NCBI RefSeq assembly: GCF_009687845.1
Contig: NZ_BLAD01000036.1
Coordinates: forward strand, 248,001-312,000
Source: Acrocarpospora corrugata
GTDB taxonomy: Bacteria > Actinomycetota > Actinomycetes > Streptosporangiales > Streptosporangiaceae
Direction: 5' to 3'
DNA length: 64,000 nucleotides
Of this stretch, positions 7,328 through 15,266 are shown in pieces; the first letter of the stretch is position 1, and each line of letters opens with the position of its first letter. Position numbers and translations under genes: made by a program. Under the pieces are notes generated by a model. It searched no databases and was not told the DNA's origin. It saw only the letters and a list, made by a program, of their open reading frames with translations.

Positions 7328-8293
7328 TTAGTGACCGACCGCCACGTTCTCGTCCGGCGCGTTGTCCAGTGCCTTGAGCACCGACTGCACCGCCTGTTCC
7401 ACCATTGCCGCCATTGACTGCCTGGTGTGCGCGGCGACGTGCGCGGTCCACAGCAGCCGGGGCCCGAACTCGGCCCTCAACGCGTCGTTCACCGATTCGT
7501 CACGATAATGCCCGTCAATCGCCGCGACCGCGATTGTGCCGTCCCGGAGCGCATTCGCCAGCGCCACCGGCTCGACCAGGACGGCCCTGGCGGTATTGAT
7601 AAGAATTGACCCTTTTCGCATCTGGGCGAATACCGACGCGTCAATGATATTCAGCGTGCTCTGGCTCTCCGGCAGCAGCACCACCAGAATGTCCGACCAG
7701 GCGGCCAGCTCGTGCAGGCCGAGGTAGGTCAGGCCCAGCCCGCCCTCGGCCAGCTTCCTGGTGCGGCTGTGATAGGCGACCCGGCAGCCGACCGCGGTCA
7801 GCAGCTCGGCCACCCGGGTGCCGATCGAGCCGAGCCCGACGATGCCGACGCGCTGGGCGGACAGCTCGCTGGGCATCGGCGTGGCGGCCGTCCACTGCGG
7901 CGGATGCCGTTCGTCCAGCCGGTCCCGGATCCCGAGGTTGGCGTAGATGATCTGACCCAGGGTGAAGACCGCGACCGCGTCGGGCCGCCGCGCCGGCGTC
8001 CAGGTGACCCGCAGGCCGTGCTCCTTGGCGGCGTCCACGTCGACGAAGCTCTCGTATCCGATGCCCATGAAGGCCACGATCTTCAGCAGCTCGGCCGTGC
8101 TGAGCGCCTCGCCGGAGGCATACTCCTCGCCGCCGTGCAGATAGGCGACCGCGTCCCGGAGCTCGGCCTTGAGCTCGGCGGGAGAAAGGAGTTTCGGCCG
8201 GGCGACAATATTGTTTCCGGCCTCTTCCAATGGGCCCAGCAACGTCAGGTCGATTCCCGAACCCGTGACAAGAATCTTCCCCGTATAGGCCAT
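7328..8293 (-). CDS. D-2-hydroxyacid dehydrogenase, NAD-dependent family
   Basis: Reversible oxidation of a 2-hydroxy acid to a 2-oxo acid, or a close variant, in the cytosol. 321 residues with the split catalytic domain and the dinucleotide fold GIVGLGSIGTRVAELL. The catalytic Arg is in NTARAVLVE and the His in LLWTAHVAAHT. The usual DVFxxEP stretch carrying the glutamate is altered to AIDGHYRDE, so the active site is slightly divergent. It lies 116 bp upstream of the ThDP enzyme on the same strand; a 2-oxo acid product would suit that neighbour, but the intervening promoter shows the two can be expressed separately. Confidence 0.88.
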   Translation of the reverse strand: MAYTGKILVTGSGIDLTLLGPLEEAGNNIVARPKLLSPAELKAELRDAVAYLHGGEEYASGEALSTAELLKIVAFMGIGYESFVDVDAAKEHGLRVTWTPARRPDAVAVFTLGQIIYANLGIRDRLDERHPPQWTAATPMPSELSAQRVGIVGLGSIGTRVAELLTAVGCRVAYHSRTRKLAEGGLGLTYLGLHELAAWSDILVVLLPESQSTLNIIDASVFAQMRKGSILINTARAVLVEPVALANALRDGTIAVAAIDGHYRDESVNDALRAEFGPRLLWTAHVAAHTRQSMAAMVEQAVQSVLKALDNAPDENVAVGH

Positions 8294-8322
8294 GATGTGT
8301 CTTTCGCGTACATTTGTCGGAT

Positions 8323-8351
8323 TTGACGAACGGGCTCCTCTGTTCTAAGGA
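8323..8351 (+). promoter_or_regulatory. Promoter ahead of the SCO2524-SCO2521 type operon
   Basis: TTGACG, a 17-base spacer and TAAGGA form a near-consensus promoter pointing into the plus-strand operon. Transcription should begin near 8358, just before a small ORF with its own ribosome binding site, and about 140 bases ahead of the first large gene. Confidence 0.55.
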
Positions 8352-8370
8352 TACGCCGGTCGGAGAGCCA

Positions 8371-8430
8371 GTGTACGACCTCGCCGAAGCCTTCGCCGCC
8401 GCCGAATTCCAGGTATTGTCCATGAGGTAG
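8371..8430 (+). CDS. Possible 19-residue peptide (MYDLAEAFAAAEFQVLSMR)
   Basis: A GTG-started ORF of 19 codons ends at TAG. It is preceded by GGAG five bases upstream and begins only about 13 bases after the predicted transcription start. It precedes the SCO2524-type operon by 70 bases, and a GC-rich hairpin (8459-8480) lies in between. It may be a genuine small protein, a leader peptide coupling translation to the operon, or chance. The alanine-rich amphipathic composition does not point to a family. Confidence 0.35.
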   Translation: MYDLAEAFAAAEFQVLSMR

Positions 8431-8500
8431 AAGCATTTTCACTGTGCACGAATGAAAAGCCGCCGCCCGGGGGCCGCGGCACGTCGTACAGGGGGACCGC

Positions 8501-10339
8501 GTGAAACTCCAACCCCGTCAGCAACTCCTCGAGATCTGGGAAGCCGCCGCCCGGGCCTCGTTCCAGGGCAAGGAGTGGCGCTGGGGCGGCCGGCAGGGCG
8601 CCAACTCCATTTCCGACGCCGAGCAGCTGCTCTGTTTCATGTATCCGGCCTCGGAGTTGCCCGAATTCCGGCTGGACACTCCGGACGCCACCTCCGACGA
8701 CGTGCTGGCCGCGCTGGCCGCGATCGGGGACAGCGTCGAGATCCCGAAACGGATGCTCGCGCTGCTTGAGGCGTACCTGACCGCCTACACCGATCCGGAC
8801 GGGCGGCCCCTCTTCGGCGGGGACACCTACTTCCTGCCGGCCGATTCGGGCGACGCGGTCACCGACGAGCAGCGCAAGCTCGACGTGGTCGACTCCTACT
8901 CCATGAGCGTCACGCTGATGCTCGGCACCCTGGGCTTCCTCAAGGTGTTCCGGCGGAGCGTCACCCGGCAGGACCTGCGGAGCAAGATCCGCGACCTGGA
9001 GAACCGGGCCAACACCCGGCTCTCCGCCGCGATGGTCGGCCTGCTGCGCAGCTTCACCGTCAACGTCTTCGAGCCGCACTCCTCCCAGGGCCAGGCGCTG
9101 CTGCGCACCGCCAACCAGTCCAAGGTGCACGAGCGGCGCGTCCAGGACGATCTGCAGAGCGCGCTGGAGGAGGTCAGGGCGGGGCTGCGCGACCTGACCA
9201 TCGGCTCCGGGTCGCAGGTCGACCTGGACAACCCCAACCTGCTCTTCGAGTGCGGCTGGGCGTGGGGGGTGGTGAAGGACGCCCCCGAGGTGGTCACCGA
9301 CCTGAAGGTGGGCGAGCAGGTCAAGGGTGTGGCGCCCGAGATCCCCTACCTCTACTTCACCGTGAACGCGCTGGTCGGCGTCGTGGACCTGTGGTCGGAG
9401 CGGACCCGCGTGCTCGGCCTGCTCGACGACGACCAGCAGCAGCTGGCCAACGCGCTGCAGCGCCGCTGGGACATCACCCAGAACTACTGGCGGACCGTGG
9501 CCACCTTCGGCAAGGGCCGCTGGCCGCTGGAGGACATCCCGTGGCGGACCACCGACGGCAAGGAGTCCGACTACTACAGCCTCGGCGTCACCGCCATGGT
9601 GGTGCAGTACCTGGTCCGCACCCGGGCCGGTGACGTCGACCTCGGCCGGGTGGCCGGCGTGCTGGAGGAGCTGGCCAGAAGCGCCCGGATCACCCGCCGC
9701 CCGGTGGAGACCGACGCGAGCGCGATCGCGCTGCACTCCCCCGGCGTCAAGGTCACCCTGCTCGGCACCGAGGAGCTGGGCCCGCAGCTGATCTGGCAGG
9801 TCTCCGACTTCGCCATCACGCTGCTCAAACGGACCATCTGGGTGGCGTCGATCACCCAGAGCAACCGGACCAGGGAACGCCTGCACAGCCTGGCCGACCA
9901 GATCTGGGCGCACATCCAGAGCCGCCGCTTCACCCAGCTGCCGCTCAAGGGCCTGTGGGACAACCCGGCGAACGCCTTCGACGACGTCATCGAGGAGGCC
10001 GACTCGGTCTCCTGGTACTTCACCGAGCGCATCGTCGAGTTCATGGTCACCCTGGCCCTCACCTCGCGCGAACCGCCGCTGCGCAGCCAGCAGCTGGTCG
10101 ACCTGGCCGGCGAACTGCTGGCCGAGGCCGAGCACCTGCTCAACCGGGAGCAGGTGATCCGGCCGGTCCGGACCCGGATGGGCGCGCCGTCCAACATCAC
10201 CACCATCGCCACCCGGCTGAACCGGGCCAGAGCGATCATGGGCGAGCGCCCGGCCAGCGCGGTCGCCCTGATCAGCAACGCCCTGCTCGAACTCGACCAG
10301 CTCGCCGCGGCCCGTGAGAACGCCTCGGAGGCGATGTAG
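8501..10339 (+). CDS. SCO2524 family protein, function unknown
   Basis: A 612-residue soluble, mostly helical protein with no motif I can link to catalysis. Its start (QQLLEIWEAAARASF ... WGGRQGANSISDAEQLL) and position at the head of a cassette matching the reverse order of Streptomyces coelicolor SCO2524-SCO2521 support the SCO2524 family name; I assign it from memory of those families. A helical segment around SKIRDLENRANTRLSAAM may be coiled. It starts at GTG with AGGGGG five bases upstream and is followed by the ATPase gene after two bases. The S. coelicolor cassette has no assigned role that I know of. Confidence 0.78.
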   Translation: MKLQPRQQLLEIWEAAARASFQGKEWRWGGRQGANSISDAEQLLCFMYPASELPEFRLDTPDATSDDVLAALAAIGDSVEIPKRMLALLEAYLTAYTDPDGRPLFGGDTYFLPADSGDAVTDEQRKLDVVDSYSMSVTLMLGTLGFLKVFRRSVTRQDLRSKIRDLENRANTRLSAAMVGLLRSFTVNVFEPHSSQGQALLRTANQSKVHERRVQDDLQSALEEVRAGLRDLTIGSGSQVDLDNPNLLFECGWAWGVVKDAPEVVTDLKVGEQVKGVAPEIPYLYFTVNALVGVVDLWSERTRVLGLLDDDQQQLANALQRRWDITQNYWRTVATFGKGRWPLEDIPWRTTDGKESDYYSLGVTAMVVQYLVRTRAGDVDLGRVAGVLEELARSARITRRPVETDASAIALHSPGVKVTLLGTEELGPQLIWQVSDFAITLLKRTIWVASITQSNRTRERLHSLADQIWAHIQSRRFTQLPLKGLWDNPANAFDDVIEEADSVSWYFTERIVEFMVTLALTSREPPLRSQQLVDLAGELLAEAEHLLNREQVIRPVRTRMGAPSNITTIATRLNRARAIMGERPASAVALISNALLELDQLAAARENASEAM

Positions 10340-10341
10340 CG

Positions 10342-11256
10342 ATGCTTGTGTTCGCCATCTCCGACAAGGGTGGCACCGGACGGTCGGTGACCAGCAGCAA
10401 CATCGTCTACCGGCGGGCGCTGCAGGGACAGGACGTCTGTTATCTCGACTTCGACTTCGGCTCCCCCACCGTCGGCGCGATCTTCCGGGTCAGCACCGCT
10501 TCGCGCGGCACCACCAGGGGCGGCATGCACCGCTACCTGCAGGGCGAGATCACCGAACCCAGCCGGATCGACGTGTGGACCGAGTCCGACCGGGACACCA
10601 TCCGCGCCAAGCCCGCCGGAGCCGGCCAGATGGTCCTGCTCCCCGGCGACCAGGGCGGCGGCGAGTTCGCCACCTTCGACGCCGAGATGCTCAAACGCTG
10701 CGTCCGCCTGTTCGCCAAGCTGCACGAGCAGTTCGACCTGATCATGGTGGATCTGAGCGCGGGCCGCTCCTTCGCCGCCCACCTGGCGCTGGCCGCCACC
10801 GCCCAGCTGCCCAAGATCCCGGCCCGCTGGCTGGTCTTCCACCGCTGGACCCGGCAGCACATCATCGCGGCCAACGGCCTGGTCAAGGGCGAGCACGGGC
10901 TGCTCGACGTGGGCCGGGAGTATGGCCACGACCCCGGCGCGCTGACCGACCGGATCAGGTTCGTCCGCACCGCGGTGCTGGAACTCGGCTCCGGCGACTT
11001 CGCCCACCTGCGCCCGGCCCAGCGCTCCTGGCTGAACGAGATCGACCGGGAGCTGCGCGAGCTGGCCACCAGGAACGGCGTCGGCCTCACCACCATGCTC
11101 GGCAAGGTGCCGCTCGACCCGGTCCTGCAGTGGCGGGAGCAGCTGATCTCCGACGAGGACGTGGCGGGCACCGAGATCGCCAACGCGGAGACCGTGTTCG
11201 CCTTCGACGACCTGGCCAAGAAGATCGTCGACGACACCGCGTGGGAGGGTCTGTGA
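10342..11256 (+). CDS. SCO2523 family ParA/MinD-like ATPase with variant P-loop
   Basis: Probable nucleotide-dependent switch of the deviant-Walker-A (SIMIBI) class. The N-terminus reads FAISDKGGTGRSVTS: the signature lysine of KGG is present (residue 9), but the canonical P-loop lysine of GK[ST] is arginine (residue 14). YLDFDFGSPTVGAIF matches the switch I region and LIMVDLSAGRSF the Walker B strand with its aspartate. The family is known as a variant P-loop family; whether it hydrolyses ATP is unclear. 304 residues, ATG two bases after the preceding stop, and its TGA overlaps the next GTG (GTGA). Such ATPases usually position or assemble partners, which here would be the four neighbouring proteins. 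Confidence 0.82.
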   Translation: MLVFAISDKGGTGRSVTSSNIVYRRALQGQDVCYLDFDFGSPTVGAIFRVSTASRGTTRGGMHRYLQGEITEPSRIDVWTESDRDTIRAKPAGAGQMVLLPGDQGGGEFATFDAEMLKRCVRLFAKLHEQFDLIMVDLSAGRSFAAHLALAATAQLPKIPARWLVFHRWTRQHIIAANGLVKGEHGLLDVGREYGHDPGALTDRIRFVRTAVLELGSGDFAHLRPAQRSWLNEIDRELRELATRNGVGLTTMLGKVPLDPVLQWREQLISDEDVAGTEIANAETVFAFDDLAKKIVDDTAWEGL

Positions 11257-12197
11257 CGTCCTTCAGCGAGGTGACGGCCGAACGCCAGATCAAGTCGGGG
11301 CCGCTGTCGCACGTCTCGGTGGAGCTGGGCCACCTCTACATGGAGGACTTCCAGGCCGGCCCCGACCGGCTCAGGCAGCAGTTCGCCATGGTCGCGCCCT
11401 GGCTGGAGACGGTCCGCCGCAGCTGGCAGAACCGCACCCCGGGCGGCCGGGCCCGGATCAGCACCTGCTTCCTGATCGACGACTACTTCAGCCGGTTCAG
11501 CACGCCCGACGAGCTGGTCCCGATGATCCTGGACGCCGCCGCCGAGAACGACCTGGTCATCGACTACCTGGCCAGGGAGTCTGCGTGCGCGGAGGCGGAC
11601 GGCGTGAAGCTGGCCAAGCTGGTGGAGGACCGGCTGGTGCCCGACCCGCCGCCCGGCACCCACAGCTGGCGCCCGCCGCCGCACGAGACCGGCTGGCTGG
11701 CCAACGGCACCCGGTCGCCGGTGGCCGGGGCCGGCCAGGCGATGAAACCGCAGATCCGGTGGGAGCCGCCCACCCAGAACGCCAAGCGCGGCCACTCCAT
11801 CTTCGTGGACGTCGAACTCTGGAACGACGACAACCGCGGGCGCACCTGGTCGTGCCCGTTCCTGGCCGCGGTGTGGCAGCTGCTCCGGCTCGGGCTGCTG
11901 CGCAACGAAGGGCGGCTGCCGGTGCAGCCGGTGCAGGTCGACGGGGGATTCCCCCGGGACTGGGACGAGCTGCCGCCGGTGGTGAAGTTGAACAAGTCGG
12001 CTACGCCGTTCAGCGCGTACACGACCATGTCCGTTCTGTCGACCCGGTTCCTGCAGGTGGAGCTGGCTGTGCGCACGATTCTCAGCCAGGTCTCGGTGGA
12101 CGAGGAAGTCCTCAAGCAGGTTCTCAGCCGGAGCACCGACGAGGATCTCCGGCTCGAAGAAGAGCTCGTCGACCGAATCTCCTACGTCTTTCTCTGA
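11253..12197 (+). CDS. SCO2522 family protein, function unknown
   Basis: 314 residues, soluble, no recognised catalytic motif. Segments that stand out are FLIDDYFSRF, a helical acidic stretch, a proline-rich linker (VPDPPPGTHSWRPPP) and a C-terminal helix LSTRFLQVELAVRTILSQV. Family name given by synteny with S. coelicolor and by memory of the family. It is translationally coupled to the variant P-loop ATPase through a 4-base GTGA overlap, which suggests stoichiometric production with it. A physical partner of the ATPase is a reasonable inference; nothing in the sequence states its biochemical role. Confidence 0.78.
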   Translation: MTSFSEVTAERQIKSGPLSHVSVELGHLYMEDFQAGPDRLRQQFAMVAPWLETVRRSWQNRTPGGRARISTCFLIDDYFSRFSTPDELVPMILDAAAENDLVIDYLARESACAEADGVKLAKLVEDRLVPDPPPGTHSWRPPPHETGWLANGTRSPVAGAGQAMKPQIRWEPPTQNAKRGHSIFVDVELWNDDNRGRTWSCPFLAAVWQLLRLGLLRNEGRLPVQPVQVDGGFPRDWDELPPVVKLNKSATPFSAYTTMSVLSTRFLQVELAVRTILSQVSVDEEVLKQVLSRSTDEDLRLEEELVDRISYVFL

Positions 12198-12226
12198 GCC
12201 GTCCTGGTCTCGGGGTCGGGGGCGAC

Positions 12227-13144
12227 ATGCTGATCATGGGGGAAGTCCGTACCGGGCTGCTGCAGAACTCGGCGGAGATCGAGGAACGGGATCACCAGAC
12301 GGTGCTCGGGCTGCTCGCCGGCGAGCGGGTCCGGATGTCCCGGCGGCCGATCGTGTACGCGGTCTCGCCCGACCTGCTCACCGGTGTGGACTGCCGGCTG
12401 CCGTCGGCGTCCAACGCCAGGATCCGCGGCGTCGGCACCCTGGTCTCCCGCGCCACGATCACCGGCGGCCGGATCCTGCAGGGTTCCTCGTACGTCCGGG
12501 TGGTGCGCGGCGAGGTCAATCACCGGCTGCCGTGGTCCCACTACCTGGCCAGGCCCGGCGTGGTCGAGGTGCTGGGCAAGGTGTCCGCGCCCGACCTGGC
12601 CGGCGGGTTCCTGGCCTTCGGGCCGCCCGGGGAGCAGCTGGATCTCGGCTCGGTCAGCGACCGGTTCATGGACGTGGTCCAGGAGTCCGCTCTGCTCGAC
12701 CTGCGCGCGCCCTTCCGCAGTGACCGCACCCGGCTCCGCTGGGTGGCCGAGACCGGTGAGCCGGGTGTGCACTTCATCCTCGGTGAGAGCACCGGGCGCA
12801 CGCTCCGCCTCACCCATCACGGCGAGTTCTCCCCGGCCGTGGTGGACCTGTGCGAGGACCTGGCGCTGCACGACTGGCTACTGACCGCCCTGCTGACGAT
12901 CGTCCAGCGGGCCCGCATCGGCGGCGCGTCCCGCCCCGAGGTCTCGGCCCGGCTCGCGCCGGCCGTCGACACGCTGCTGCACCTGTGGATGCCCGGCGCG
13001 AGGATCCACCCGTCGCTCGCCCCGCTGTGGGAGAACCTGGAGCGCACGCCCGGCTTCTCCCGGCAGTGGCAGTCCCTCGTCGAGCGGGTACGCGACCAGC
13101 TCGCGGTCAACACCCTGGCCCTCCTGCGCGAGACAAACGGATGA
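12227..13144 (+). CDS. SCO2521 family protein, function unknown
   Basis: About 305 residues, soluble. The N-terminal half is rich in beta-strand-like alternation (MSRRPIVYAVSPDLLTGVDC, ARIRGVGTLVSRATITGG), with a recurring GxGTxxSR-type turn; the C-terminal half is helical and ends in a tryptophan-containing helix bundle (LHLWMPGARIHPSLAPLWENL). Assigned to the SCO2521 family by gene order and resemblance. It starts at ATG 29 bases after the SCO2522-type stop, with a second in-frame ATG three codons later. The membrane protein gene follows after three bases, so all five genes should form one transcript. Confidence 0.76.
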   Translation: MLIMGEVRTGLLQNSAEIEERDHQTVLGLLAGERVRMSRRPIVYAVSPDLLTGVDCRLPSASNARIRGVGTLVSRATITGGRILQGSSYVRVVRGEVNHRLPWSHYLARPGVVEVLGKVSAPDLAGGFLAFGPPGEQLDLGSVSDRFMDVVQESALLDLRAPFRSDRTRLRWVAETGEPGVHFILGESTGRTLRLTHHGEFSPAVVDLCEDLALHDWLLTALLTIVQRARIGGASRPEVSARLAPAVDTLLHLWMPGARIHPSLAPLWENLERTPGFSRQWQSLVERVRDQLAVNTLALLRETNG

Positions 13145-13147
13145 TTC

Positions 13148-14101
13148 ATGGCCGATAAGAAGCCGAAGTTCGATGTCGAAACCCTCAATCCCTCGTTTGT
13201 GAAGATCCTCATCAGCTTCGTCTTCGGCGGCATCGTCTGGGGACTCTCCGAGCTGTTCCAGAACGGCGACATGAACACCGGCCAGATGTGGAGCATCCTC
13301 ATCTCGCTGTTCGCGGCCTCGGTGGCGTTCGTGGTGCAGCACCTGATCACCGTGGAGAAACAGAACGACGCGACCCGGCACGAGTTACGCGAAGGGCTGT
13401 CCAGGATCGACGAGGCCACCGAGCTGTTCGGCCTGGTCGAGCAGTCGGCCGTGCAGATCGACCTGGTCACCCAGCTGGTCCGCAACGCCACCGGCGTGGA
13501 CAAGGAGATGCCGACGCTGGTGCAGCGGTTCGCGCAGACCGAGATCGAGCGGATCTCCACTCTGCTGCGCGAGCTCGGCGAGGGCGACGTCACCTACGAG
13601 GGCGAGGACCGGGACTGGCTGCTCGGCCTGGCCCGCAACGTGGAGCGCAGCATCGACGCGCTCAGCCTGGCGGTGGTGGACCAGGGGCCCGGCGAGTTCG
13701 ACGGCGGATTCTGGATCACCGACGCCGGCCAGCGGTATCTGGAGATCCAGCGGGAGCGGGCCAAGGCGGGGGTGCGGATCCGCCGGATCTTCTACGTCGA
13801 CACCCAGGAGCGGCTCAAGTCCGAGACGTTCCAGCAGATCAGCAGGATGCACGTGACGGCCGGCGTGGACGTGCGGGTGCTCACGGCGGGCCAGCTCACC
13901 TCGGCGCTCGGCGTGGACGACTTCATCGTCTTCGACGGCGTGGTCAGCTACGAGATCATGGCGTCCAACACGCTGTCGGTGGGCGAGCTGGTCACCCACA
14001 CGTTCGTACGGACGCTGCTGATCCTGGAGCGGCCCCGGGTGCGGCAGCGGATCGAACGGTTCAGAGAGCTGTGGGAGCTGGCGACAGAGCTGCCGCCGTG
14101 A
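13148..14101 (+). CDS. Two-helix membrane protein ending the SCO252x-type operon
   Basis: Residues 17-36 and 47-67 form two transmembrane helices separated by a short loop. A charged helical or coiled linker (KQNDATRHELREGLSRIDE) and a cytosolic domain follow. The C-terminal part (GQRYLEIQRERAKAGVRIRR, VDDFIVFDGVV) resembles a catalytically dead phospholipase-D-like fold; no HxKxxxxD motif exists. It begins three bases after the SCO2521-type gene, so it could be the membrane anchor or output of the cassette. The same plan appears in the protein at 4800. Its last 41 bases overlap the 3' end of the convergent FAD oxidoreductase gene. Confidence 0.75.
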   Translation: MADKKPKFDVETLNPSFVKILISFVFGGIVWGLSELFQNGDMNTGQMWSILISLFAASVAFVVQHLITVEKQNDATRHELREGLSRIDEATELFGLVEQSAVQIDLVTQLVRNATGVDKEMPTLVQRFAQTEIERISTLLRELGEGDVTYEGEDRDWLLGLARNVERSIDALSLAVVDQGPGEFDGGFWITDAGQRYLEIQRERAKAGVRIRRIFYVDTQERLKSETFQQISRMHVTAGVDVRVLTAGQLTSALGVDDFIVFDGVVSYEIMASNTLSVGELVTHTFVRTLLILERPRVRQRIERFRELWELATELPP

Positions 14102-15266
14102 AGTCCCGCTCCGGGCTGCAGATCCGCAGCCGCTCCCGCACCTCCGGGTCGGCCGTACGGTCGTGGACCAGGTCGGCCACCAGTTCCGCCGTCACCGGGG
14201 CCAGGGTCACGCCGAGGCCGGAGTGGCCGGTCGCGGCGATCAGCCGCCGGTGCTCGTCCAGGTAGCCGATGATCGGGACGTGGTCCGGACTGGCCGGGCG
14301 CAGGCCGCCCCAGTGGCGTTCCAGCCGCCAGTCCGCGGTAGCCGGCATCAGCGTGCCGATCCAGGAACGGATCGACTGCAGGCCCTTGGCGGTGGGCGTG
14401 GCGTCGTAGACGTGCTCCTCGTAGGTGACGCCGACGGCCACCCGGCCGTCGTGGCGGGGCACCAGGTAGGGGTAGCCGCGTTCCTCGCCGTCCTGGATCT
14501 CGGCGAAGACGTGGTGGTTGAGCGGGTAGCCGGTGAAGCCGGGCGGGCGGAGGTCGAACGCCTCACCCTTGATCGGGAAGATCAGCTCGGCGAGTGCGGG
14601 GAGCAGCTTGCCGCTCTGGTAGCCGGCGGCGACCACGACGGTGCCGGCCTGGATCACCGTGCCGTCCTGGAGCTCGACCTCTGCGCAGGCGGGGCCGGAG
14701 TCGACGCGGACCACCCGGGTGCTGAGCTTGAGCGTGACCGGGGAGCGGGCCAGGGTGCGGCGCAGCGCGACCATCAGCTCGCGCGGGTCCAGGGCGAGCT
14801 CCTCGTGCAGCAGGAACGCGCCGACCACCCGGTCGCTGAGCAGCGGCTCCAGGTCGCGGGCTTCCGCGGCGGTCAGCTGGCGGACCTCGAAGGGGGCCTC
14901 CAGCCAGCGCGGCAGCACCTCGCTGAGCAGCCGGTCCAGCTCCTCGCGGTCCAGGGCCACCTGGATGTCGCCGCCGCCGAGCACGTGCACCTCGACGCCG
15001 GAGACCTTCCTGAGCCGGTCCAGCCACGGCTCGTACAGGTCGCGGCTGCGGCGGATGACGCTGCTCAGGGGGCCGAGGCAGGCGGTCTCGGTCTGGGTGA
15101 GGATGCCGCCCATGGCGGCGTCGGACGCGCCGAGACCCAGGTCTTCCGCGGCGTCCACCAGGATCACGCGCCGGCCCTGGGCACCGAGCTCATAGGCGAT
15201 CGCACTGCCGATCACTCCGCCACCGACGATGGCGACGTCGCAAATCTCAGGCACAAGCGTCTCCAT
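14061..15266 (-). CDS. FAD-dependent amino-acid oxidase/dehydrogenase (DAO family)
   Basis: Oxidises an amine, typically an amino acid, with FAD. 401 residues: the N-terminal dinucleotide fold CDVAIVGGGVIGSAIAYELG, then DAAMGGI, the central substrate domain and the C-terminal FAD-sealing GATGHSGLG-type motif (here IAATGHSGLGVTLAP) with the GGLRPASPDHVPIIG strand. It resembles glycine/sarcosine oxidases and the D-amino-acid dehydrogenase group; substrate unknown. Start ATG 15266. It lies 121 bases downstream of the ADP-forming synthetase gene on the same strand, so it may be a loosely attached last gene of the catabolic operon, supplying or consuming the same amino acid. Confidence 0.87.
   Translation of the reverse strand: METLVPEICDVAIVGGGVIGSAIAYELGAQGRRVILVDAAEDLGLGASDAAMGGILTQTETACLGPLSSVIRRSRDLYEPWLDRLRKVSGVEVHVLGGGDIQVALDREELDRLLSEVLPRWLEAPFEVRQLTAAEARDLEPLLSDRVVGAFLLHEELALDPRELMVALRRTLARSPVTLKLSTRVVRVDSGPACAEVELQDGTVIQAGTVVVAAGYQSGKLLPALAELIFPIKGEAFDLRPPGFTGYPLNHHVFAEIQDGEERGYPYLVPRHDGRVAVGVTYEEHVYDATPTAKGLQSIRSWIGTLMPATADWRLERHWGGLRPASPDHVPIIGYLDEHRRLIAATGHSGLGVTLAPVTAELVADLVHDRTADPEVRERLRICSPERDFTAAALSPAPTAL

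Follow-up and report, generated by a model that had tools for sequence, protein, structure and literature searches.

In the actinobacterium Acrocarpospora corrugata, a five-gene operon encoding members of the SCO2524, SCO2523, SCO2522 and SCO2521 protein families and a membrane protein, here called M5 (the membrane partner), forms a conserved, co-inherited and selected unit that combines an invariant arginine in the P-loop of SCO2523 with a dedicated but exchangeable membrane partner. The operon lies in a stretch of 64,000 nucleotides (hereafter the window; contig NZ_BLAD01000036.1, positions 248,001 to 312,000), and positions are given in window coordinates. We favour, with somewhat less than even confidence, the view that, in mycelial actinobacteria, its products make up a nucleotide-switch complex that is coupled to the membrane and contributes to the control of growth or development.

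Conservation and co-inheritance of the operon

A preliminary description of this DNA had assigned the first four proteins to these families and held that they have no assigned function. Both statements are borne out: the proteins match the family models over their full length and far above the NCBIfam cut-offs (931.7 bits against 300 for SCO2524, 496.7 against 200 for SCO2523, 448.9 against 200 for SCO2522 and 432.9 against 150 for SCO2521), and NCBIfam gives the families no function. In a set of 396 genomes of the phylum, this one included, SCO2524 (NF040567) is present in seven genomes, the source genome among them, and SCO2522 (NF040566) in exactly the same seven. In these searches, as in those for M5 and for the alternative membrane protein described below, the first three to six candidates per genome were scored, and absence is therefore not proof.

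A scan of 84,980 species, one genome each, returned 245 SCO2524 relatives, and the 86 loci examined comprise the best 80 of these and six further genomes. Among others, the best 80 come from Streptosporangiales genera, Frankia, Catellatospora, Phytohabitans, Nocardia, Solihabitans, Actinomadura, Kitasatospora and Streptomyces, the genera listed by name being mycelial. The presence of SCO2524 in the 80 loci is by construction, because they were picked via this protein. The order SCO2524-SCO2523-SCO2522 is kept, with all three genes co-directional, in 86/86 loci. SCO2521 was seen in 85 (on the same strand as these three in 80, inverted together with M5 in five) and would lie past the contig end in the last, and M5 was found in 76 (71 of the 80 best relatives and five of the six further genomes). 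Written in the order SCO2524-SCO2523-SCO2522-SCO2521-M5, the strand patterns are +++++ in 70 loci, ++++. in 9, +++-- in 5, +++.. in 1 and ++++- in 1. Because order and co-occurrence hold across genomes, the observation is not a product of chance, and the conserved gene order proposed earlier is confirmed. In one Phytohabitans and four Catellatospora loci (L048, L051, L056, L060 and L068) SCO2521 and M5 are inverted together and converge on the other three genes. An apparent fusion of SCO2521 and M5 in L057 was ruled out, the translation having a stop codon between the two.

Trees were compared for the 71 loci with all five genes, together with the window. Of 43 strong splits in the SCO2524 tree, 35 are shared by SCO2523, 35 by SCO2522, 37 by SCO2521 and 29 by M5; for the SCO2524/SCO2523 pair, 200 label shuffles shared 0.11 splits on average and 2 at most. 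The ratio of nonsynonymous to synonymous substitution rates (dN/dS) is 0.175-0.402 across the five genes in three close pairs. The five genes are under purifying selection, and their trees are largely congruent. No SCO2522 relatives were found among 72,556 plasmid and 50,697 phage records, and in 23 loci grouped with Streptosporangiaceae the genes flanking the window operon recur (a hydroxyacid dehydrogenase relative in 22/23, a DAO-type oxidase relative in 20/23). Together, these two results indicate that the operon behaves as part of the core genome.

The arginine P-loop of SCO2523

The preliminary description had read the motif KGGTGRS of SCO2523 as a P-loop that keeps the signature lysine and has arginine for the P-loop lysine, and this reading stands: arginine is found in 86/86 loci, with DKGGTGRS in 84, GKGGTGRS in L040 and DKGGAGRT in L082, and the deviant Walker A motif with both lysines, KGGxxGK[ST], does not describe this family. 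Three aspartates are invariant in 33/33 aligned members, namely D36 and D38, which we take to be switch residues, and D137, which we take to be that of Walker B. The dN/dS of SCO2523 is 0.198-0.389 in the three close pairs.

SCO2523 is related in sequence to the MinD/ParA-type SIMIBI ATPases over its first ~40-60 residues (Pfam ParA, NCBIfam MinD/Mrp and PDB MinD/Mrp chains) and shares with them the signature lysine, the invariant aspartates and, putatively, a place beside a membrane protein. It differs from them in its P-loop arginine, and all such matches fall under the curated cut-offs (the best MinD model at 22.9 bits against 212.9, Pfam ParA at 22.8 against 27.1); no Pfam match to a MinE or ParB model was found at E<=1 among its four partner proteins. 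Outside its own family, the NCBIfam model that SCO2523 matches best is NF047398 ('KGGVGR-motif variant AAA ATPase'), at 41.1 bits across residues 6-151, and all 33 aligned members match it at E<=0.001 (best 3.8e-11). The domain occurs in FxsT-like proteins of FxSxx-COOH peptide systems, which have arginine at the same P-loop position. Unlike them, SCO2523 is under the 90-bit cut-off, stands alone, belongs to another operon and lacks the large C-terminal part. The source genome itself encodes an FxsT-like protein with KGGTGRT (locus L002, G000:C51, minus strand), which scores 142.9 bits with NF047398 and, on a sequence truncated where the locus ends, 117.8 bits against a cut-off of 300 with the FxSxx-COOH TPR protein family; the gene upstream of it presumably resembles FxsC. 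By its sequence, the SCO2523 P-loop is nearest to this wider KGGxGR group, the FxsT-like protein of the source genome included.

The arginine P-loop is thus a real variant under purifying selection, but its singularity had been overstated, because NCBIfam already has both a 'variant P-loop' name and a KGGVGR model and because ParA/MinD-type proteins with altered lysines, some of them active, are already in print. A passage of PMC9178275 gives SGGQGKT of McdA and RGGVGTT of BcsQ as altered-lysine P-loops, and one of PMC10482377, citing TadZ, describes ATPase activity that persists after lysine-to-alanine changes; going by these passages, an altered lysine does not by itself mean inactivity.

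Two exchangeable kinds of membrane partner

The earlier placing of a membrane partner in the operon is supported by its distribution: M5 was found in 6/396 genomes, each of them operon-bearing. Its description as a two-helix membrane protein three bases downstream holds for the spacing and for the two transmembrane-like segments, but a C-terminal DUF6879-like domain had been overlooked. By hydropathy, two such segments are seen in 26 of 35 homologs, one in 8 and three in 1. DUF6879 (PF21806) scores 20.2 bits with the window M5, where the Pfam gathering cut-off is 23.9, and matches 33/35 aligned homologs at E<=0.01 (best 4.9e-11). No NCBIfam model matches M5 at E<=1, the phospholipase D HKD motif (HxKx4D) occurs in 0/35 members, and DUF6879 is unmentioned in the open full-text literature searched. 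Elsewhere in the source genome, a DUF6879 gene directly follows a helix-turn-helix (HTH)/DUF5753 regulator (L107:289-1983), and there are four further DUF6879 matches.

The seventh operon-bearing genome (G050) is without M5 and has an alternative protein with two transmembrane segments, matched nearly over its full length (E 9.4e-128); in 11 other genomes of the 396, matches to the profile of this protein span 64-95 of 280 positions. Ten of the 86 loci are without M5. Three of them (L041, L078 and L083) break off too soon for a decision, two (L037 and L040) have neither kind, and in five (L055, L058, L065, L089 and L019) the alternative protein is encoded after SCO2521 on the opposite strand, about 1 kilobase (kb) on in L058. 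The two kinds never occur together (76 versus 5 loci). The alternative protein has about 273-283 amino acids, is 44-78% identical to the L065 copy, and consists of an N-terminal cytoplasmic part and a C-terminal hairpin. Ion_trans_2 matches two of the five copies at 14.7 bits (gathering cut-off 22.5) and the other three not at all, and none of the five has a TVGYGD-type filter, the corresponding motif being LNPLG[FY][GQ]D in four and gapped in L019. Kinship between M5 and the alternative protein was considered and rejected (hhalign probability 0.57 percent). The membrane partner is system-specific and comes in two exchangeable kinds with no detectable similarity, which is new.

In most groups M5 is the least conserved member of the operon, with 42% identity versus 66-72% for the core in Microbispora, 57% versus 66-72% in Planotetraspora and 31% versus 46-56% in Streptomyces and allies; the exceptions are Acrocarpospora (86% versus 86-89%) and one Sphaerimonospora locus (67%). 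Its dN/dS of 0.195-0.402 in the three close pairs falls inside the core range or at its upper end.

Predicted structures and a possible enzymatic role

The AlphaFold2 model of SCO2524 (predicted local distance difference test, pLDDT, 89.6; predicted template modelling score, pTM, 0.86) is nearly all-helical, with six successive long hairpins in residues 130-611, as counted by eye from the DSSP string. In a Foldseek search of the PDB, the best match is cellobiose 2-epimerase 3wkg (E 0.017, probability 0.99) and the next toroid is the GH76 enzyme 4bok (E 0.04, probability 0.99), both with template modelling scores of 0.48-0.49 on the target; no row reaches E<=0.001, nor does any in a viral fold library. 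Glycan enzymes of toroid type, a class that we take to be the (alpha/alpha)6 toroid, make up 28 of the 50 rows listed; the remainder are unrelated helical proteins, with a designed protein ranked second. SCO2524 thus models as a putative six-hairpin toroid. Its model has six helical hairpins, as the (alpha/alpha)6-toroid enzymes do, but its E values with them stay at 0.017-0.04 and its best PDB sequence match is not significant (E 0.11). The SCO2522 model (pLDDT 72.3, pTM 0.76, residues 130-194 of low confidence) has no Foldseek match at E<=0.001. A HUP/HIGH-type nucleotidyltransferase or a glycosyltransferase appeared for it in weak Foldseek rows alone (best E 0.38) and is not claimed. In sequence searches of solved structures, SCO2522 has no relative, the alternative membrane protein has no row at E<=1, and the rows for SCO2521, M5 and SCO2524 are no better than E 0.11.

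These models bear on another reading, in which the operon serves a cytoplasmic small-molecule or modification pathway, with SCO2524, SCO2522, a methyltransferase related to SCO2525 and a GNAT protein as enzymes and SCO2523 as a chaperone-like or regulatory NTPase. Besides the toroid matches, the alignment of SCO2522 would suit an enzyme, with many invariant polar residues, including H, D, E, R and C. A relative of SCO2525 adjoins the operon in 51/80 loci, two SCO2525 homologs that were scanned match NNMT_PNMT_TEMT, and, as a raw count, the stretch fetched around the operon contains a GNAT relative in 52/86 loci. The reading is weakened by the Foldseek E values of both proteins, none of which is below 0.017 for SCO2524 or 0.38 for SCO2522, and by the methyltransferase adjoining the operon in 0/23 loci grouped with the window's family, though it does so in two further genomes of that family. 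It would also leave the dedicated, exchangeable membrane partner and the invariant P-loop unexplained, and we consider it unlikely.

Exceptional loci and rival explanations

Several loci depart from the common arrangement. SCO2521 (NF040565) was searched for in 24 hand-picked genomes, some of them chosen for looking odd, and was found in ten; of the 12 with SCO2524 in any form, two (G446 and G476) are without it. In G476, SCO2524 is a fragment of about its first 111 residues. In G423 it is split into two pieces and frames, and the other operon genes and a methyltransferase are matched; G411 has the methyltransferase too, and its M5 gene is on the opposite strand, upstream. The source genome has a second, broken SCO2524 (G000:C47:30695-32473, locus L020), in pieces over several frames, and no partner genes of this copy were found in the 20 kb read. 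In the G446 locus (L124) the SCO2523 relative has lost its P-loop and Walker B stretches, with AGDGAGCT at the P-loop position, and SCO2522, SCO2521 and M5 were not found within 20 kb.

The broken or fragmentary SCO2524 copies, the P-loop loss in L124 and the replaced lysine itself would speak for SCO2523 being an inactive remnant and the operon decaying or ordinary. We regard this as very improbable, given that DKGGTGRS is kept in nearly all loci and arginine in every one, that the switch and Walker B aspartates are invariant, and that SCO2523 is under purifying selection in all three close pairs. The loss of the P-loop in L124, a sample of one, would make sense if the nucleotide state mattered only in the presence of SCO2522, SCO2521 and the membrane protein.

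In L124 (7995-13845, minus strand), SCO2524 is preceded by a gene that matches NNH7 (NACHT N-terminal helical domain 7) and AAA and shares an ATGA overlap with the SCO2524 start, and is followed by the SCO2523 relative that lacks the P-loop and Walker B. The NNH7 gene product is presumably a NACHT-type NTPase, although PF05729 (NACHT) does not match it. At the place of M5 in L040, a gene convergent with SCO2521 (L040:14627-17377, minus strand) encodes a 916-residue protein with NACHT and FGE-sulfatase domains.

The main rival to the nucleotide-switch reading draws on these loci. It holds that the operon is an immune-like or conflict module, in which a KGGxGR switch would respond to a threat by activating an exchangeable two-transmembrane effector, so that a compartment is disabled and the mycelium protected. 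It is in keeping with NF047398 being the second-best NCBIfam model for SCO2523, with the FxsT-like protein of the source genome, with the swapping of the membrane partner between lineages, one kind of which is weakly ion-channel-like, and with the NACHT-type genes noticed at 2/90 loci. A passage of Kaur et al. 2020 (PMC7159879) also describes MinD/ParA-like domains, predicted to be inactive, in the conflict systems of multicellular bacteria. Relatives of the two NACHT-type proteins, however, were found in no other of the 90 loci (the 86 and L124-L127), in a search aimed at these two proteins and not at other NACHT types. For the five proteins PADLOC returned a single weak match, of PDC-M28B with SCO2523 (18.1 bits and E 2.8e-4 over 42 residues), and no known anti-phage system. 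The lack of SCO2522 relatives on phage and plasmid records, the recurrent flanks, the congruent trees and an M5 dN/dS no higher than the top of the core range likewise tell against a conflict module, which we hold to be doubtful, if the most serious of the alternatives.

Layout of the operon in the window

The preliminary description let the operon begin at 8323, a position that falls in the intergenic gap 8294-8500; the first codon is the GTG at 8501. Its claim of coupled starts holds for SCO2524/SCO2523 (a 2-nucleotide gap), for SCO2523/SCO2522 (the stop of one and the GTG start of the other share a GTGA overlap) and for SCO2521/M5 (a 3-nucleotide gap), but not for SCO2522/SCO2521, where the start lies 29 nucleotides past the stop. 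A scan of 8250-14250 returned neither a sigma-70-type promoter consensus nor a terminator-like site; the operon promoter should sit in the gap upstream of SCO2524.

Table 1. Features of the operon and its flanks in window coordinates
Feature	Position	Strand	Remarks
SCO2524 family protein	8501..10339	+	612 amino acids; start GTG; NF040567
SCO2523 family variant P-loop protein, MinD/ParA-like	10342..11256	+	304 amino acids; NF040564
P-loop KGGTGRS	10366..10386	+	residues 9-15 of SCO2523; signature lysine kept, P-loop lysine is arginine
SCO2522 family protein	11253..12197	+	314 amino acids; start GTG; NF040566
SCO2521 family protein	12227..13144	+	305 amino acids; NF040565
M5	13148..14101	+	317 amino acids; transmembrane-like segments 12-31 and 44-70; linker; C-terminal DUF6879-like domain
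Intergenic gap, divergent 2-hydroxyacid dehydrogenase gene / SCO2524	8294..8500	.	presumed promoter site
Flanking 2-hydroxyacid dehydrogenase gene	7328-8293	-	
Flanking DAO-type flavin adenine dinucleotide (FAD) oxidase gene	14061-15266	-	overlaps the 3' end of the M5 gene on the opposite strand

Discussion

The reading that we favour would work as follows. SCO2523 would bind ATP via KGGTGRS and act as a dimeric switch that hydrolyses slowly or not at all, with SCO2524, as a large helical toroid, for its closest partner. SCO2522 and SCO2521 would sense or set the nucleotide state and relay it to the two-transmembrane membrane protein, whose cytoplasmic domain (DUF6879-like in M5, and belonging to a different two-transmembrane protein elsewhere) would be the input or output module. 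ATP binding, dimerisation, a physical complex and the direction of signalling are all parts of this proposal that we infer. The single complex, and the positioning or secretion-like machine, that the preliminary description had suggested would likewise be hypothetical.

A role in growth or development is suggested by analogy with Streptomyces coelicolor, where, according to a passage of PMC11472566, the HupS regulon includes the operon sco2521-sco2526. The passage also cites SCO2525, after Gehring et al. 2004, as a methyltransferase needed for normal growth. Passages elsewhere give SCO2525 a morphogenetic role among HrdB targets (PMC6344877) and mention its mutagenesis in a discussion of S-adenosylmethionine (SAM) and development (PMC3017869). 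This published developmental role was missed by the preliminary description, as were the DUF6879-like domain and the replaceable membrane partner. The S. coelicolor cluster has the same four families as the window operon, and Streptomyces loci add the SCO2525 relative and GNAT; it differs in that the window operon has no SCO2525 beside it and that the membrane gene lies outside the published cluster, the counterpart of the M5 gene being probably SCO2520, by numbering. In the full text of 5.39 million open papers, SCO2521-SCO2524 are named in PMC11472566 alone, and the family names and 'variant P-loop' nowhere. The families are catalogued already, and we found no paper on the machine itself in that literature.

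Several observations weigh against a switch that feeds into growth or development. What the passages cited above say on development is about SCO2525 and co-regulation rather than about SCO2524 to SCO2521, and SCO2525 was not detected in the source genome, in searches run without a positive control. The operon is patchily distributed: SCO2524 is present in 31 of 150 genomes of the window's own family (30 over the cut-off, the first few candidates per genome having been scored), and in the 396-genome searches some genomes congeneric with operon-bearing ones have neither SCO2522 nor SCO2524. The tree of M5 agrees less well with the core, 19/30 of its strong splits recurring in the SCO2524 tree. 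The modelled resemblance of SCO2524 to glycan-active toroids could mean an enzyme, and its KGGxGR and NACHT-type connections would rather place the operon with conflict systems.

A more speculative idea, which we think improbable, would join the membrane-coupled switch to cell fate. The operon would then be a device of multicellular actinobacteria resembling nucleotide-binding leucine-rich repeat (NLR) proteins, in which a nucleotide switch governs an exchangeable effector in the membrane, which some lineages would have as a channel-like pore, and in which the KGGxGR and toroid module is wired either to SCO2522, SCO2521 and the membrane protein or to a NACHT-type ATPase.

These NCBI-named families without a function occur in the genetically tractable S. 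coelicolor, and direct, testable predictions follow from the exchange of the membrane partner and from the variant coupled to NNH7. If the switch reading is true, an arginine P-loop can stay invariant over wide divergence, and the operon would encode an unstudied signalling machine that bears on the growth decisions of mycelial bacteria.

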